64,000 nucleotides of DNA from contig NZ_PRDB01000020.1 in the NCBI RefSeq assembly GCF_002925905.1, positions 1 through 64,000 of the forward strand, given 5' to 3'. This DNA is from Klebsiella michiganensis (lineage in GTDB: Bacteria > Pseudomonadota > Gammaproteobacteria > Enterobacterales > Enterobacteriaceae). The notes beneath the pieces are model-generated. The model did no database searches. It was not told the origin of the DNA and saw only the letters and a list, made by a program, of their open reading frames with translations. The translations under genes and the position numbers were made by a program. Of this stretch, positions 11,888-20,718 are shown in pieces. Each line of letters starts with the position of its first letter. The stretch's first letter is position 1.

Positions 11888-12298
11888 GTAGCCTGGACAG
11901 ATGCGCAGCATCGCCGGCGGGAAATTCAGCGACTCTGCGCGCTGCTCCCGGGGGCGGCGCAGGACGCGCCTTGCCCGGGCTACAGGTATTCAGCCGTCTG
12001 CGGTAGCCCGGGTAAGGCGTAAGCCGCGACCCGGGGAATGCGCTCACCGTCTGCGATCCGGTAGCCCGGACAGATGCGCAGCATCGCCTCCGGGGAAATG
12101 GTGCCACGCTGCGCTCTGCTCCCGGGGGCGGCGCAGGACGCGCCTTGCCCGGGCTACAGGTATTCAGCCGTCTGCGGTAGCCCGGGTAAGGCATAAGCCG
12201 CGACCCGGGGAATGCGCTCACCGTCTGCGGGCCGGTAGCCCGGACAGATGCGCAGCATCGCCTCCGGGAAGCCGCGCGCACCGCGGCCCGGCGCTACC
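11888..12298. repeat. Tandem ~173-bp GC-rich palindromic repeat (two full units and a partial)
   Basis: Units begin GTAGCCtGGACAGATGCGCA at 11888, 12061 and 12235, i.e. periods of 173 and 174 bp; the third unit ends where xni begins. Each full unit contains facing palindromes (GTAGCCCGGGTAAGGC...GCCGCGACCCGGG; GCCTTGCCCGGGCTAC). Related elements sit at 19522-19619 and 23924-23952, so this is a dispersed family. The stretch fills the place where fucO stands in E. coli and holds no credible gene. Confidence 0.85.
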
Positions 12299-13158: not shown

Positions 13159-15102
13159 CTAATCAACGTGCATCAGCAGGCCGAGATCGCTATTGGTGGC
13201 TTCGCCGTACCAGACCGCCTCGCGCACCGAAACCGGTTTGTGGATAAGCCCCAGGGCGTAAAAGCGATCGGCGATACTTTGTTGGGCGCGAATCACGTTG
13301 AGATCCATCGGCCGCGGACGATGGCTGCGGCGCGATAAGGCGCGCGTCAGAGAGGCGGCGTTAAGCCCCAGCTCGGCGGAGAGCAGTCCGGCGGCTTGCT
13401 CCCGGTGCTGGTCAATAAACTGGCCGGTCTGCGCCAGCTCGGCTAACAGGCGCTGCATGATATCGCTATTGCGGCTGGCGTAGTCGCGGCGCGACAGGTA
13501 GAACTGGTGGTTATTGACGCGCCCCTCGCCGCTGGCAACAACCCGTAATTCGCCGCTATATTCCGCGTCGCTGAGCAGCGGATCCCACATCATCCAGGCG
13601 TCCACCGCCAGGTAATCGCTGGCGGTCAGCGGATATTTCGGCGGAATATAGACCACTTTGACGTCGTTTAATGCCAGCCCGGCCTCTTCCAGGATATGCA
13701 GCAGCAGCCAGTGCACGTTAGAGCCCTTATTCAGCGCTATACGCTTGCCGCGCAGGTCGGCAATGGTGCGAATGTCGCTGTGCTGCGGGACGACCATCGC
13801 CACGCTTTGCGGAGCGGGCGGTTCCCAGGCGACGTAGACCAGCTCGCCGTTACTCGCCTGAGCGAAAACCGGCGGCGCTTCGCCGGTGGTGCCAAAATCG
13901 ATCTCATCGCAGGCGAGAGCGTGCAGCAGCTGCGGCCCGGCGGGGAATTCGCTCCACAGCACGCTGACGCCGCGGCTGGCAAAGGCTTGCTCGAGACTTT
14001 GCCGCGCTTTCAGGATGCCAAGATTGCCGAAGCGCTGGAAGCCGATGCGCAGTTCCCGGTCGCGAGAGACGCTGTTGACCGCCGGGCCGAAGAGAGGCTC
14101 CTGACGGCGGCGGCTTTTAATGATGCCAAAATTGGCCAGCTGCGTGCGCAGCGTGTGGCGGCTAATACCGAGCAGCGCCGCGGCCTGGCTTTGATTATCG
14201 TCACTGTGGGCCATCGCGCCGCGTATCAACGCCCCGGTGACCCTCTCCCACAGCGGCTCGCCCGGCAGGGAAAGCTGACGACGAATAAAATCGTCGAGCT
14301 CATTATCGCCCGCCGCCGAGGGCTCATTGTTCAGCGTCGTCAGCCGCAGCTGGGCGGGGCCGATCTCCTCTTCTTTACTCAGCAATACCGCGTTATGCAG
14401 GGTGTTTTCCAGCTCGCGAATATTGCCCGGCCAGGGGTACTCCATCAGCCTTGCCAGCGTCTCCGGGGCCAGACGACGAGCCGGGCGGCCCAGGCGGCGG
14501 GCGTAGAGCGAGAGAAAATGGTCCGCCAGTACGGGAATATCCTGGCGACGCTGGCGCAGCGGCGGCAGCGGGACGAGGGCGATATTCAGGCGATAGTAGA
14601 GGTCTTCGCGGAAACGACGCTCGCGGATGGCCTGCATCAGGTCCACGTGGGTGGCGGCGATCACCCGCACGTCCACCTTAATGGCCTTGCGCGAGCCGAC
14701 GCGGGTGATTTCGCGCTCCTGCAGAACGCGCAGCAGTTTGACCTGAAGCGGCAGGCTAAGCTCGCCGATTTCATCGAGCAGCAGGGTGCCGCCCTCCGCC
14801 GCCTCGAACCAGCCGGGATGGCCTTGTACCGCGCCGGTAAACGCCCCTTTTTCATGGCCGAACAGCTCCGCTTCCGCCAGGCTTTCGCTGAGCGCGCCGC
14901 AGTTGACGGCCAGAAACGGCCGGTGGCGGCGCGGGCTATGGTGATGCAGGTAGCGGGCGACGACCTCCTTACCGGTGCCGGTTTCGCCGACAATCAGCAC
15001 GGTCGCCTCGGTGGGGGCCAGTTTATCCAGCAGGCTCTGAAACGCTTTTGACGCCGGGTCGATCAGCGCGGGCGTAGAGGATGGAAATTCAGGATTCAGC
15101 AT
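13159..15102 (-). CDS. Sigma-54 activator fused to an SsuA-like substrate-binding domain
   Basis: 647 residues, start ATG at 15102 after GGAGGT. Order of domains: an AAA+ sigma-54 activator almost at the N-terminus (Walker A GETGTGKE 39-46, GAFTGA 86-91, Walker B LLLDE 107-111), a Fis-type HTH near 285-325 ([17 protein letters not shown]), then from about 350 to the end a complete NMT1/SsuA-like periplasmic-binding-protein fold without a signal peptide. That domain resembles the separate binding protein at 19629-20570 (shared [15 protein letters not shown] blocks). There is no receiver or GAF domain, so the C-terminal domain is the likely effector sensor, probably for a sulfonate or other organosulfur compound. 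Divergent from the monooxygenase gene it probably activates. Ligand unknown. Confidence 0.88.
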
Positions 15103-15175
15103 GGTGACCTCCGGTATTTGATGCCCTGAAGTTATCCTGTGCCGGGGACGGAAACCAGAGGGCTAACTCGCCGGT

Positions 15176-15225
15176 CTGTTGCAAATGCCGCAGTCCGGAC
15201 GCATTGGCTGCGGCATTTGCAACAG
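15176..15225. promoter_or_regulatory. Perfect 18-bp inverted repeat, candidate upstream activator site
   Basis: CTGTTGCAAATGCCGCAG (15176-15193) and CTGCGGCATTTGCAACAG (15208-15225) are exact reverse complements separated by 14 bases. It lies about 60-110 bases upstream of the -24 element at 15287 and between the activator gene and its presumed target, where enhancer-binding proteins usually bind. No T tract, so not a terminator. Binding by the 13159-15102 product is inferred. Confidence 0.75.
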
Positions 15226-15286
15226 CGGCGTAAGGTTCGGTTTTTTGTAACTCACTGAATTTATACTGTTAATTTTTTATTCACCA

Positions 15287-15303
15287 TTGGCACGATTATC
15301 GCT
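15287..15303 (+). promoter_or_regulatory. Sigma-54 (-24/-12) promoter
   Basis: TTGGCACGATTATCGCT: the GG and GC dinucleotides are exactly 10 bases apart as required, and TTGGCAC fits the -24 element fully. The -12 element is TCGC instead of TTGC. The start would fall near 15314, about 60 bases before the monooxygenase ATG. Confidence 0.7.
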
Positions 15304-15372
15304 AACACTCATATAACCAAATTAAAACAACTCTTCGATAAATATCGGATATGGTTATATAGGAAATGGATA

Positions 15373-16545
15373 ATGACGCAAAAAACCGACGATAAAATCA
15401 ACGTGTTCTGGTTTCTGCCCACCCACGGCGATGGCCGCTACCTGGGCACCTCGGAGGGCGGACGCCCGGTTGATTTGCCTTACCTGCAGCAGGTGGCGCT
15501 GGCGGCCGATAGCCTCGGCTACTACGGCGTGCTGATCCCAACGGGGAAAAGCTGCGAAGACTCCTGGCTGGTGGCCTCGGCGCTGGCGCCGTTGACCCGC
15601 CGCCTGCGCTATCTGGTGGCCGTTCGTCCGGGCCTGCAGCCGCCGACGCTGGCGGCGAGGATGGCGACGACGCTCGACCGCCTGTCGGGCGGTCGGCTGC
15701 TGATTAACGTGGTGACCGGCGGCGATCCGGTGGAGAACAAAGGCGACGGTATTTTCCTCAGCCACGGCGAACGCTATCAGGTCACCCGCGAATTTCTCGA
15801 CGTCTACTCGCGCCTGCTGAAAGGTGAAAAGGTGGATTATCACGGCGAGCATATCCACGTGGAAGGCGCGGAAGTGCTGTTTCCGCCGGTACAGGAAAAC
15901 GGCCCGCCGCTGTTTTTTGGCGGCTCCTCTGAGGAAGCCATCGACGTCGCCGCCGATCAAATCGATACCTACCTGACCTGGGGGGAGCCGCCGGCGCTGG
16001 TGGCCGAAAAGCTGGCGATAGTGCGCGAGCGCGCCGCCGCCCGGGGCCGCACGTTGCACTACGGGATTCGTCTGCATGTGATTGTTCGCGAAACCGAAGA
16101 GGAGGCGTGGGCCGCCGCCGATCGGCTGATTTCACACCTTGATGACGAAACTATCGCCCAGGCGCAGAAAATTTTTGCCCGTATGGACTCCACCGGCCAG
16201 GCGCGAATGAGTTCGCTGCATAAAGGATCGCGCGACAATCTGCGTATTGCGCCGAACCTGTGGGCGGGCGTGGGGCTGGTGCGCGGCGGGGCCGGGACGG
16301 CGCTGGTCGGCAATCCGCAGCAGGTGGCAGAACGCATTCGTGAATATCAGGCGCTCGGTATCACCAACTTTATCTTCTCCGGCTACCCGCATCTGGAAGA
16401 AGCCCATCGTTTCGCTGACCTGGTCATGCCGCTATTGCCGCTGGCAGGCCACGATCAGCCGAAGGCGCGTAGCGTCAATACCGGCCCGTTTGGCGAAACC
16501 ATCGGCGGCGATAAGCGTCCGGTGAAACAGGTCAGCGCAAGCTGA
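15373..16545 (+). CDS. SsuD-like FMNH2-dependent alkanesulfonate monooxygenase
   Basis: 390-residue bacterial-luciferase-like (LLM) flavin monooxygenase, very close in sequence to SsuD along its length ([72 protein letters not shown]). SsuD cleaves alkanesulfonates to aldehyde plus sulfite using FMNH2 and O2. No SsuE reductase or SsuBC transporter genes accompany it, so those must come from elsewhere. It has its own -24/-12 promoter. Substrate range may differ from SsuD, so no symbol is given. Confidence 0.88.
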
Positions 16546-16586
16546 GGAGGCGCGTATGTTACACCGATTTGTGAAGGCGGTGGGCT

Positions 16587-17984
16587 ATGCAAACTGAACC
16601 GCACGTGGTGATTGTCGGCGGCGGATTTAGCGGTGCGGCGGTGGCTATTCATCTCCTGCGCCTGGCGCCGGTTGGCGTGCGGGTCACGCTGCTGGAGCCG
16701 CGCGAGGTGCCCGGCGCGGGCGTGGCCTACTCCACGACCGAACCGAGCCATCGGATTAACGTTCCTGCCGCGCGGATGCAGCTTGCCGGTGAAGAGGAGG
16801 GCGCGTTCGATCGCTGGTACCGCAGCCAGCCCGCCTTTGCGGATGACCCGCATGCTCTGCTGGCAGACGGCGCGGTCTATCCGCAGCGCGGTCAGTTTGG
16901 CCGCTATGTCGCCCAGCGTTTCGCCGAGGAGGCGCGCGCCAGCGGCGGGCGGCTGACGCATCTGCGCGAGCAGGCGCTGAGCGTTAATCATGGTGAAGTT
17001 GTCACCGACGGCGGGCGTCGGCTGCAGGCCGATCTGCTGGTGCTGGCCATCAGCCATCCGCCGCCCTCGCTGCCGTCGCTGGCGACGCCGTTCGCAACGC
17101 ATCCGGCGCTCATCGCTAACCCCTGGCGAGCGGGTGTGCTGGCAACTATCGCCCCGGAAGCGAGCGTCGCGGTCATGGGCACCGGCCTGACGATGGCGGA
17201 CACCGTCGCGACCCTGACGCGTCTGGGCCATCGGGGGCCGATCGCGGCATTTTCACGCCGCGGGCTGCTGTCCCGCAGCAACCTCAGCGGCAGTAGTGAA
17301 CCCTGGCCTGGCGAATACGATCGCGGAACGCTGCGCCAGCGGCTGCGGCAAATCCGTCTGGATATCGAGCGCGCGGCGGAGCAGGGACAGGCCTGGCAGG
17401 TGGTGCTGGACGCGGTGCGTAATCAGGGGCAGAGCATCTGGCAGGGGCTGGCGGTGGCCGATCGCAAGCGCTTCCTGCGTCATTTGCGCAGCTACTGGGA
17501 CGTTCACCGCTACCGTATCGCTCCGCAGGTCGCCGGGGTCCTTGAGCAGCGCCAGCGCGACGGCAGCCTGCGGGTGCTGGCGGCCAGGCTGACGGCGCTG
17601 GAAGGCGACGCGCAAAAGCTGGCGCTAACCCTGGCTCCCCGGCGCGGTGAAACGCTGCGGGTGAGCGCTGACCACTTTATTTTAACCACCGGCCCGGCGC
17701 ACGGCGGGTTGACCGACAGCCAGCCGCTGCTGCGTCAGCTGAGCCAGCGTGGGCTGATTCGCGCCGATGCGTTCGGCCTTGGCCTGGACGTCGATCGCCG
17801 CTCGCGGGCGATTGGCCGGGAAGGGCGGATTACGCCCAATCTGCTGGTTTCCGGACCCGCCGCGCGGGCGTATTTCGGAGAATTAATGGGGCTGCCGCAG
17901 GTGGCCGACCATGCCGCCGCCGTGGCCGACGAAGCGCTGCGGACCCTGGGCGTCAAACAATCCGCCCGATGTCCGGCGTTCTGA
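16587..17984 (+). CDS. FAD/NAD(P)-binding oxidoreductase (YdhS-like)
   Basis: 465 residues beginning with an FAD Rossmann motif VVIVGGGFSGAAVAIHLL; a second dinucleotide site (VAVMGTGLTMADTVATL) lies near residue 195. This is the FAD-NAD(P)-binding family that includes YdhS. Reaction unknown. It sits 41 bases after the SsuD-like gene and 73 before a second flavin monooxygenase, so a redox role in organosulfur breakdown, possibly oxidation of a side-chain, is a reasonable inference but unproven. Confidence 0.8.
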   Translation: MQTEPHVVIVGGGFSGAAVAIHLLRLAPVGVRVTLLEPREVPGAGVAYSTTEPSHRINVPAARMQLAGEEEGAFDRWYRSQPAFADDPHALLADGAVYPQRGQFGRYVAQRFAEEARASGGRLTHLREQALSVNHGEVVTDGGRRLQADLLVLAISHPPPSLPSLATPFATHPALIANPWRAGVLATIAPEASVAVMGTGLTMADTVATLTRLGHRGPIAAFSRRGLLSRSNLSGSSEPWPGEYDRGTLRQRLRQIRLDIERAAEQGQAWQVVLDAVRNQGQSIWQGLAVADRKRFLRHLRSYWDVHRYRIAPQVAGVLEQRQRDGSLRVLAARLTALEGDAQKLALTLAPRRGETLRVSADHFILTTGPAHGGLTDSQPLLRQLSQRGLIRADAFGLGLDVDRRSRAIGREGRITPNLLVSGPAARAYFGELMGLPQVADHAAAVADEALRTLGVKQSARCPAF

Positions 17985-18057
17985 ACGCCTTTTATCCCCT
18001 GATTCCTTTAATGATTATGCGCGCGTCCCGACAGCGGGGCGCGCCGTGGAGAGTGCT

Positions 18058-19463
18058 ATGTTATCACAACGTGAAATTCGTCTGAACGCTTTTGATATGA
18101 ACTGCGTCGGCCATCAGTCGCCGGGGCTGTGGGCCCATCCGCGCGACCGCTCCTGGCAGTATAAAGACCTCGAGTATTGGGTCGACCTGGCGCGTCTGCT
18201 GGAGCGGGGCAAGTTTGACGGGCTATTTATCGCTGATGTGCTGGGAGTCTATGACGTGCTGAACGGCAACGGCGATGCGGCGATCCGCCAGGCGGCGCAG
18301 GTGCCGGTCAACGATCCGCTGGCGCTGATTACGCCGATGGCGCTGGTGACGGAGCATCTGGGATTCGGCCTGACCGCTTCGCTCTCTTTTGAGCATCCCT
18401 ATCCGTTCGCCCGCCGTCTTTCAACCCTCGACCATCTGACCAAGGGGCGAGTGGGCTGGAATATCGTGACCTCCTATCTTGAGGCGGGGCGCGTAATATT
18501 GGCCAGAAAGCGCAGACCGACCACGACGCCCGCTACGACTATGCCGATGAATATCTGGAGGTGGTCTATAAGCTGCTGGAGGGGAGCTGGGAGGATGGCG
18601 CGGTGCTGCGCGACAGGGAACGTAAGATCTTCAGCGATCCGCGAAAAATTCACCCGATTAACCATCAGGGGAACTTCTTCTCGGTGCCGGGGATCCACCT
18701 CTGCGAGCCGTCGCCGCAGCGTACGCCGGTACTCTATCAGGCGGGCGCCTCCAGCCGCGGCAAGCAGTTCGCCGCCGGCCACGCGGAGTGCGTATTTGTC
18801 GGCGCGCCGTCGAAAGTGCTGCTGAAAAAGACGGTGGCGGATATTCGCCGTCGCGCCGAGGAGGCCGGGCGCGATCCGCGCAGCATCCTGATCTTCAATA
18901 TGCAGACGGTCATCGTCGGCGAAACCGATCGTGAAGCTCAGGCTAAATGGCAGGAGTATAAACCGTACGTCAGCTACGAAGGGGCGCTGGCTCTGCTCTC
19001 CGGCTGGACCGGCATCGACCTTGGTCAGTATCAGCCGGATCAGGTGCTGGAGTATCTGCATACCAACGCGATTCAGTCGATGGTAGAGGCGTTTTCCACC
19101 GCCGATCCGAACAGCCAGTGGACCGTGCAGAAGCTGGCGGACTGGGCGGGGATCGGCGGCTTCGGGCCGCTGGTGGTCGGCAGCCCGCAGACGGTCGCCG
19201 ATGAGCTGCAGTCCTGGGTCGAAGAGACCGACGTCGATGGGTTTAACCTCGCCTATGCGGTGACCCACGAAACCTTCCGCGACGTGGTGGATTTGCTGGT
19301 TCCGGAGCTGCAAAAGCGCGGCGTGTTTAAGCAGGAGTATCGCGAGGGAACCCTGCGCGAGAAGCTGTTTGGCGCCGGCCCGCGGCTGGCTGCGCCGCAT
19401 CCGGGCGCAGGCTATCGCTACGGCGCGCAGGTCGCGGTCGGGAGTGAAGAGAAGGTGAGTTAA
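18058..19463 (+). pseudogene. NtaA/SnaA/DszA-family flavin monooxygenase, one frameshift
   Basis: LLM-class monooxygenase of the NtaA/SnaA/SoxA(DszA) group, which use FMNH2 to oxidise amines, sulfones or related compounds. The first frame runs from ATG 18058 (after GGAGAG) through GRVGWNIVTSYLEAG and then loses homology; the second frame resumes with NIGQKAQTDHD and continues to 19463. Restoring one G in the G run 18486-18489 gives one continuous protein of about 468 residues, normal for the family. Either a genuine recent 1-base deletion or a base-calling error. Third gene of the block after the flavoprotein. Confidence 0.85.
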
Positions 19464-19521
19464 TTTTGCCGGTCCCCCTCTCCCCGAAGGGTGAGGGGCT
19501 GAACTGTGGGGCGGGAGGTTT

Positions 19522-19619
19522 TTCCCGGAGGCGGCGCTTGACGCGCCTGTCCGGGCTACGGATCCACCGCCGTCTGCGGGCCGGTAGCCCGGGTAAGGCG
19601 CTTGCGCCGCGACCCGGGA
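19522..19619. repeat. GC-rich palindromic repeat, same family as 11888-12298
   Basis: Contains GGCGCTTGACGCGCC, GTCCGGGCTAC and GTAGCCCGGGTAAGGCGCTTGCGCCGCGACCCGGG. Lies between the convergent monooxygenase and binding-protein genes and may serve as their shared transcript end. Confidence 0.75.
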
Positions 19620-19628
19620 AGGGAAGAC

Positions 19629-20570
19629 TTACTGCTTATCCAGCGACCAGGTCGCGCTGCGAACATCGACTTTCACCGGCAGCAGGCCGATACGGGTGAA
19701 GGTATCCGCCAGCGCCTGCTGTTCGTTATAGACCGCAGGCGTCATACGCTCGGCACCATAAGGCAGACGCGCCAGCGTCTTCAGCCAGATAGCCTTATCC
19801 AGCCCGGTTGAGGTGGAGAGGATCCCGGCGGCATCCTCCTGATGACTGTTGGCCCATTCGCTCAGTTTACCCAGCTCATCCACCACCTGCTTTGCGGTAT
19901 CCGGATAGGTGTCGGCAAATTTGCGGCTGGCCAGGTAGAAGGTGTAGTGCGGCACCAGCCCTTCGGCATTGCCAATCTGTCGCGCTTTGGCGTTCGTTTC
20001 CACTTCGGCGAGGAACGGATCCCAGATAACCCAGGCGTCAATAGCGCCGCGCTGGAAGGCGGCGCGGGCGTCAGCAGGCGGCAGATAGACCGGCGTGATA
20101 TCTTTATAGCTCAGCCCGGCTTTCTCCAGCGCGGTCACCAGCAGGTAGTTTACGTCGGAGCCTTTATTGAGCCCCACGCGCTTGCCCTTAAGATCGGCCA
20201 CGCTCTTAATTGCCGAGTTTTCCGCCACCACGATGGCCTCGGTTTTTGGGTTCGCCGGGGAGTGGGCTAAATAGACCAGATCCGCCTGCGCCGCCTGGGC
20301 AAAGGCCGGCGGCGCATCGCCGGTGGCGGCGAGGTCGATGCTGCCGACGTTCAGCCCTTCCAGCATCTGCGGCCCGGCGGGAAATTCAATCCAGCGTACG
20401 GCGATACCCTGCTTTTTGAAGCTTTCATCGAGGGTGCCGCGATATTTAAGCAGCGCGAAGATATTGGCTTTCTGATAACCGATATTCACGGTCTCCGGCG
20501 CTTTCGCCAGCGCGGAAGCGGATAAGCCTGCCAGCAGTAGCAGCAGCGCCGGGCGGGATAATCTGAGCAT
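19629..20570 (-). CDS. SsuA-like sulfonate ABC transporter periplasmic binding protein
   Basis: 313 residues from the ATG at 20570 (after AAGGAG). A cleavable signal peptide (ALLLLLAGLSASALA) is followed by an NMT1/SsuA-type binding protein (VNIGYQKANIFALL, EFPAGPQMLEGL, LNKGSDVNYLL, IDAWVIWDPFL). The family binds aliphatic sulfonates, taurine or nitrate-like anions in the periplasm. No permease or ATPase gene adjoins it, so it would have to use an SsuBC- or TauBC-type transporter encoded elsewhere. Clearly homologous to the C-terminal domain of the sigma-54 regulator at 13159-15102. Confidence 0.88.
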   Translation of the reverse strand: MLRLSRPALLLLLAGLSASALAKAPETVNIGYQKANIFALLKYRGTLDESFKKQGIAVRWIEFPAGPQMLEGLNVGSIDLAATGDAPPAFAQAAQADLVYLAHSPANPKTEAIVVAENSAIKSVADLKGKRVGLNKGSDVNYLLVTALEKAGLSYKDITPVYLPPADARAAFQRGAIDAWVIWDPFLAEVETNAKARQIGNAEGLVPHYTFYLASRKFADTYPDTAKQVVDELGKLSEWANSHQEDAAGILSTSTGLDKAIWLKTLARLPYGAERMTPAVYNEQQALADTFTRIGLLPVKVDVRSATWSLDKQ

Positions 20571-20718
20571 GATTTGTTCTCCTTGAGCGGTTTTTCCGTA
20601 AGGTAACAAATCGTCTTTATAACTAATAAATAACTAAATTATCATTTATATAACATAAATGAAGGAGGAGGGCAGGGAAAAGAAGCCCGGCATGCCGCAG
20701 CATACCGGGAGGGGGGCG

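Follow-up and report, generated by a model that had tools for sequence, protein, structure and literature searches.

An SfnR-type sigma-54 activator with an SsuA-family domain behind its DNA-binding domain in an organosulfur block of Klebsiella michiganensis

Sigma-54 activators of the NtrC, NorR and PrpR type share an AAA+ domain with a GAFTGA loop and a Fis-type helix-turn-helix (HTH) and carry their sensor at the N-terminus. Sensors with a binding-protein fold that are read out in the cytoplasm occur in LysR, LacI and ModE-like HTH regulators; to our knowledge, none of these joins a sigma-54 AAA+ activator to an SsuA-family domain placed after the HTH. The closest described systems are SfnR, SfnR1 and SfnR2 of Pseudomonas, reported as sigma-54 activators of genes for dimethyl sulfone and methanesulfonate, where dimethyl sulfone is converted to methanesulfinate, methanesulfonate and finally sulfite via SfnG, MsuC and MsuD (PMC8234197). 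Here, a regulator of this kind is described from a 64,000-nucleotide (nt) stretch of Klebsiella michiganensis DNA (the window; assembly GCF_002925905.1, contig NZ_PRDB01000020.1, positions 1-64,000, forward strand; genome size 6.19 Mb). The regulator, a predicted protein of 647 residues encoded at 13159..15102 on the minus strand, joins an SfnR-type activator to a C-terminal domain related to the sulfonate-binding protein SsuA. It is likely that an SfnR-type activator has acquired this domain as its own cytoplasmic sensor for the use of sulfonates or sulfones.

The regulator is made up of an AAA+ domain (about residues 15-264), a Fis HTH (about 285-330), a variable linker and the SsuA-type domain (about 345-640). 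Matches in Pfam are Sigma54_activat at 17-175 (E 5.2e-68), AAA_lid_14 at 183-264, HTH_8 at 292-320 and NMT1 at 374-567, and the Walker motifs and the GAF[TS]GA loop are retained across the regulator family. The NCBIfam model SsuA_fam (TIGR01728) matches residues 352-631 with 192.2 bits against a cut-off of 163.5, and the narrower NCBIfam model NF008588 gives the domain 255.6 bits, below its cut-off of 299. A sequence search of the Protein Data Bank aligned 283-285 residues of the domain with 3e4r/3ksj/3ksx (E 1.8e-61), deposited as a nitrate transport protein, and with 2x26 (E 4.6e-60), the E. coli sulfonate-binding protein. No signal peptide is present: the N-terminus is the AAA+ domain and the SsuA-type domain is internal. 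Because the AAA+ domain begins near residue 15, there is no room for an N-terminal sensor, and since the SsuA-type domain lacks a signal peptide and follows the HTH, it would work in the cytoplasm. This layout supports the SsuA-type domain as the sole candidate sensor, located behind the HTH rather than in the N-terminal position of the NtrC, NorR and PrpR type. An earlier inspection of the DNA letters (the sequence-only reading) had proposed a sigma-54 activator, an SsuA-like fold without a signal peptide and an unusual C-terminal sensor position, and all three are borne out by these matches. Public annotation of the fusion is inconsistent, with copies called either substrate-binding protein or sigma-54 regulator (plasmid records H4, H12 and H13; locus L167, 8590-10491).

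Homology to SsuA of E. coli (2x26) and Xanthomonas citri (3e4r/3ksj/3ksx) extends over nearly the whole chain. The X. citri protein is reported to bind HEPES, MES and MOPS, with Q36, G68, G86, S141 and W185 as ligand residues and Ser141 in contact with the sulfonate (PMC3839906). Equivalents of Q36, G68, G86 and W185 are kept in all 33 regulator rows of the alignment (32 loci and the window), whereas the Ser141 equivalent is Asn in every one of them. That same position is Asp in 25 of 26 rows labelled as exported proteins, including the one encoded in the window, and the 26th is a broken regulator (L088). The motifs N[KR]GSN and WDP are kept in 19 aligned regulators. Thus, four of five ligand positions are shared with SsuA, and the regulator domain differs in its fusion to an activator, its missing signal peptide, its Asn at Ser141 and its membership of an NKGSN/NKGSD subgroup that stands apart from canonical SsuA with QKGSS. 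In each of the 4 loci examined (Acinetobacter, Halopseudomonas, Hansschlegelia and Cupriavidus), a free-standing binding protein of the Asn type is encoded next to ssu uptake genes, which suggests an organosulfur nutrient as the ligand.

The activator half falls in one clade with six activators that carry no further domain (joint support of 99 in the Shimodaira-Hasegawa-like approximate likelihood ratio test, SH-aLRT; 97 for the regulator clade; a quick tree of 52 rows with SH-aLRT as its only support measure). Based on its sequence, this half is sister to SfnR-type regulators of Pseudomonas. The clade includes both activators of a Pseudomonas aeruginosa msuE-ssuD-acyl-CoA dehydrogenase locus, to which the names SfnR1 and SfnR2 were assigned from gene place and PMC8234197. 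The AAA+ and HTH domains of the regulator are 49-53% identical over 322-329 residues to the products of the two Pseudomonas genes and to a relative in locus L164, and its predicted targets, judged by neighbourhood and sites, are of the msu/sfn type. Unlike the regulator, with its 300-residue SsuA-type domain after the HTH, the two Pseudomonas proteins have 361 and 376 residues and no room for a further domain.

The regulator is transcribed divergently from an operon that begins with an ssuD-like gene, and the region between them contains putative binding sites for both sigma-54 and the activator. A predicted sigma-54 promoter, TGGCACG-N4-TCGCT (GG-N10-GC), lies at 15288..15304 on the plus strand, with its TGG 85 nt before the ssuD-like ATG. 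Two predicted enhancer sites (upstream activating sequences, UAS), neither assigned to a strand, precede it: UAS 1, a TGTTGCAAATGCCGCA dyad, at 15176..15193, and UAS 2 at 15208..15225, 32 nt from UAS 1, the pair forming an inverted repeat with 18-nt arms. A sigma-54 site was found in 50 of 50 readable regulator-ssuD regions (43 of 43 nonredundant regions at <90% identity), mostly 85 nt before the ssuD start, against 2.2% in a shuffled control scored with a pattern one position stricter than that used for the observed count; 2 of the 52 loci (L062 and L066) had no readable intergenic region. All 43 nonredundant regions contain at least one dyad of the type TGTTGCAAATGCNGCA and 38 contain at least two (shuffled mean, 0.10), with centres at roughly 103 and 71 nt ahead of the promoter and thus 32 nt, or about three helical turns, apart. 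The same dyad pair recurs at unchanged distances in nine more Klebsiella regions, two of them from counted genomes, where the sites score 13-16 of 18. In the K. michiganensis genome itself, which encodes rpoN, there are two exact matches to TGTTGCAWWTGCNNCA, namely UAS 1 and UAS 2; a further 10 matches at one mismatch compare with 8 in a reversed control and are at about chance level. The presence of this promoter in every readable region supports the organosulfur target operon that had been proposed for the block.

Sites of the same kind also occur where sfnG lies away from the regulator. In six Pantoea records with a distant sfnG, the gene is preceded in 6 of 6 cases by a sigma-54 site together with one dyad or more (two in 4 of 6). 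Four control regions, taken from Phyllobacterium (two), Rhizobium and Variovorax upstream of sfnG or msuE, have neither kind of site. Pantoea At-9b and a P. dispersa strain carry the regulator on the plasmid that also holds the distant sfnG, and it lies on a different plasmid in Lij88 and C9-1 (records sharing a strain name) and in strains of P. anthophila and P. agglomerans (matched by near accession and same source). The Variovorax locus carries two dyads like the UAS of the regulator, about 3.5 kb from its sfnG.

The fused regulator was found in 17 of 149 family genomes and 16 of 20 genus genomes, the K. michiganensis genome included in both counts, and in 33 of the best 80 named loci, the remaining 47 being unfused. 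These 33 loci, in which one has a broken frame (L088) and one is cut by a contig end (L062), all belong to Enterobacterales and include Klebsiella, Raoultella, Pluralibacter, Kluyvera, Pantoea, Serratia, Erwinia, Lonsdalea, Hafnia and others; loci L041-L056 and L058-L090 overlap in part, with certain genomes listed under two handles. K. grimontii and K. oxytoca carry the named copies nearest to the regulator domain in the window. Searches that scored at most 5 or 6 candidates per genome recovered the fusion from the K. michiganensis genome only in a class sample (369 genomes, E up to 1e-60), and from that genome and one further family member (G146) only in a phylum sample (299 genomes, E up to 1e-40), where four of the longest open frames held no AAA+ domain. 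Matches to the C-terminal 353 residues of the regulator at E up to 1e-100 occur in 69 of the 72,556 records of a plasmid collection: 65 from Pantoea, 2 from Klebsiella, 1 from Chimaeribacter and 1 named Pseudomonas silvicola. The last of these, CP093281 (L237), holds much of the cluster and pieces of the regulator, with most genes in broken frames, and is typed as rep_cluster_1232, a replicon type also found in Pantoea records; mislabelling, contamination or plasmid transfer may account for it. Ratios of nonsynonymous to synonymous substitution rates (dN/dS) against three Klebsiella relatives are 0.05-0.13 for the SsuA-type domain, 0.06-0.09 for the AAA+ domain and 0.04-0.26 for the linker with the HTH, values that indicate purifying selection on the SsuA-type domain. 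A read-through or misassembly artefact was considered and rejected because the fusion is conserved across many genomes.

Comparative sequence analysis thus establishes the fusion, its conservation, the kinship of the activator half and the predicted promoter and enhancer sites; we infer ligand binding, the identity of the ligand, activation rather than repression by it, and the steps from ligand to ring. In the proposed mechanism, the activator would bind the two enhancer sites and act on the sigma-54 promoter of the divergent ssuD-like operon, and also on that of sfnG in genomes where sfnG is located elsewhere. The two-lobed SsuA-type domain would be closed by a small organosulfur compound that is imported or made in the cell, methanesulfonate or another C1 sulfonate, sulfinate or sulfone being the most likely. 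Closure would release or promote assembly of the AAA+ ring, and ATP hydrolysis would then open the sigma-54 promoter. Further, we lean toward the view that a sensorless, starvation-type SfnR became ligand-gated in Enterobacterales through capture of an SsuA-type domain, with the resulting order of AAA+, HTH and sensor reversing the usual order of sensor, AAA+ and HTH.

Several observations weigh against this proposal. Its ligand, binding and expression parts, and the intact state of the ligand cleft, are read from sequence only. The change of Ser141 to Asn in every regulator examined means that the ligand may not be a sulfonate. There is no match to sfnG in the K. michiganensis genome (E up to 1e-100), so the route would start later or differ there; this absence, together with a frameshifted target enzyme and the lack from the block of genes for a MetNIQ-like importer, a major facilitator superfamily (MFS) carrier and an acyl-CoA dehydrogenase, indicates that the system may be reduced or decayed in this strain. 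A stricter dyad pattern, allowing at most one mismatch, lowers the count to 5 of 6 distant sfnG genes, against 0 of 3 controls. A perfect TGTTGC-N4-GCAACA dyad upstream of Pseudomonas msuE (0 of 2000 shuffles) speaks for the proposal, although the dyad pattern used there was generalised after the site had already been seen. No perfect dyad was found in L163, L164 or L235, all of which have SfnR-type activators, indicating that the site is not universal among relatives; sigma-54-like sites are present in L163 and L235.

The same sequence evidence could also describe a sensor of opposite sign, in which a preferred or end-product sulfur compound (e.g., sulfite or sulfate) is bound and switches the activator off. 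Such a sensor would fit a cleft that is kept except for the change of Ser141 to Asn, and, as SfnR-type relatives operate without a further domain, the AAA+ half may well be active by default. The free Asn-type proteins beside ssu uptake genes in all four loci examined point instead to an organosulfur nutrient as the ligand, and we regard the opposite sign as unlikely. The changed Ser141 is likewise compatible with a domain that has ceased to bind and serves as a scaffold for oligomerisation or for contact with the ssu transporter, binding proteins being in general recruitable as interaction domains; retention of the other four ligand positions in 33 of 33 rows, of N[KR]GSN and WDP in the 19 aligned regulators, and the low dN/dS of the domain all run counter to a scaffold, which is very improbable.

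A separate question, compatible with the cytoplasmic-sensor proposal whichever way it is answered, is whether the sensor arose by direct duplication of the exported SsuA-like gene in the same block. The sequence-only reading had suggested such a duplication from a 12-residue block and a WDP motif shared by the two proteins. Both motifs are indeed present in both proteins; however, E. coli SsuA also has EFPAGPQ, KGS and WDP, so the motifs show family membership and were rejected as proof of a local duplication. The domain search confirms kinship to SsuA. Three findings run against a copy of the same-block protein: regulator domains and exported proteins form two separate clades, each with SH-aLRT 100, in a quick tree of 138 rows; identity of the regulator domain is 40% with the exported neighbour and 48-52% with free-standing Cupriavidus binding proteins; and the regulators have NKGSNVH where the exported proteins have NKGSDVN. 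Yet a joint clade of the two groups was not rejected in an approximately unbiased (AU) test of 55 of the 138 rows (p-AU 0.674), where it was the likelier of the two trees under comparison, and the exported gene directly follows the regulator in several genomes (e.g., L045, L048 and L056). A direct duplication is therefore possible, although we lean slightly away from it. In 47 loci of other taxa, the surroundings of free binding proteins (up to 10 kb per side, shorter in some) contained no activator gene, and hence no unfused pair was seen as an ancestor.

The block sits between xni and sdaB and comprises the regulator on the minus strand, the divergent ssuD-like, flavoprotein and NtaA/DmoA-type genes on the plus strand, and a convergent exported SsuA-like gene. 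The operon encodes an SsuD-type FMNH2-dependent alkanesulfonate monooxygenase (15373..16545, plus strand; TIGR03565, 612 bits against a cut-off of 518), an FAD/NAD(P)-binding flavoprotein (16587..17984, plus strand; PF13454) and, as its third gene, an NtaA/DmoA-family flavin monooxygenase (18058..19463, plus strand) that is frameshifted near 18486-18489. The two flavin monooxygenases and the flavoprotein noted in the sequence-only reading are thus all encoded, the third-gene enzyme in the window in a broken frame. In all 12 Klebsiella and Raoultella loci examined (11 genomes, as L059 and L190 are the same), this gene is matched in one unbroken piece. The broken record L237 loses its frame at nearly the same residue (144-146), a coincidence that may reflect a position prone to sequencing error. 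The exported SsuA-like protein (19629..20570, minus strand; TIGR01728, 233 bits against a cut-off of 163.5), whose separate presence had also been correctly recognised, likely has a signal peptide, as judged by eye; its listed open reading frame starts at a TTG at 20609, and the ATG at 20570 is the likelier start. Blocks of K. pneumoniae and Pantoea are fuller, with a MetNIQ-like importer, an MFS carrier and an SfnB/DszC-like acyl-CoA dehydrogenase (labels for which all scores are under the family cut-offs); these genes are absent from the block in the window, in K. grimontii and in four other Klebsiella genomes (L189, L191, L192 and L193). The block in the window is therefore a reduced form of the fuller cluster. 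The gap at 19464-19628 contains GC-rich repeats related to a 174-nt tandem repeat at 11919-12266.

Between the promoter and ssuD, an inverted repeat, ATATAACCA...TGGTTATAT, spans 15311..15360 (plus strand) and includes invariant GTTATA columns; it may be a CysB or Cbl site. A leader RNA element was considered for this region and rejected, with a folding z-score of only -1.16 and no Rfam match. A GGTTATA like these columns also stands upstream of the exported gene in K. pneumoniae and Pantoea and of ssuE in E. coli. Before the exported gene itself, no sigma-54 or UAS site was found in the window or in K. pneumoniae; two loose sigma-54 matches in L040 fail the stricter pattern by eye, and L044 has one weak dyad.

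The sulfonate or sulfone class of substrate that had been proposed for the block is supported by the presence of sfnG inside the cluster or under sites of the same kind elsewhere, the sulfone part being weak for the K. michiganensis genome, which lacks sfnG. Of the 16 fetched genomes, 5 have sfnG within the cluster, as do 8 of the 33 named loci, with some genomes counted in both sets; the one copy scored gave 591 bits to TIGR04021 against a cut-off of 383. In the K. michiganensis genome, the ssu operon linked to pepN consists of ssuE-ssuC-ssuB (L202, 3385-5560; G000:C12), without ssuA and ssuD, and the SsuD and probably the SsuA-like protein of the block may therefore serve SsuBC. A total of 22 regulator-bearing genomes were searched, and of the 19 with ssuC, 11 lack ssuD in the pepN-linked operon; among 8 genomes without the regulator, chosen by hand, it is missing from 1. 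In one genome without the regulator (G011; L028/L229), an Asp-type exported binding protein adjoins ssuB and ssuC, which hints that it serves SsuBC.

Both halves of the regulator fall in well-known families, the SfnR-type activators and the SsuA binding proteins; no description of such a fusion was found among the open-licence papers listed by searches aimed at it. If the proposal is correct, the regulator would be an example of a sigma-54 activator gaining a sensor at the opposite end from usual and of a transport binding protein turning into a cytoplasmic sensor. SfnR relatives that lack the SsuA-type domain provide a natural control for the effect of the added domain. For many enteric bacteria, these results name a regulator, its sites and a predicted regulon, the ssuD operon and sfnG, for the use of sulfones and sulfonates as sources of sulfur.

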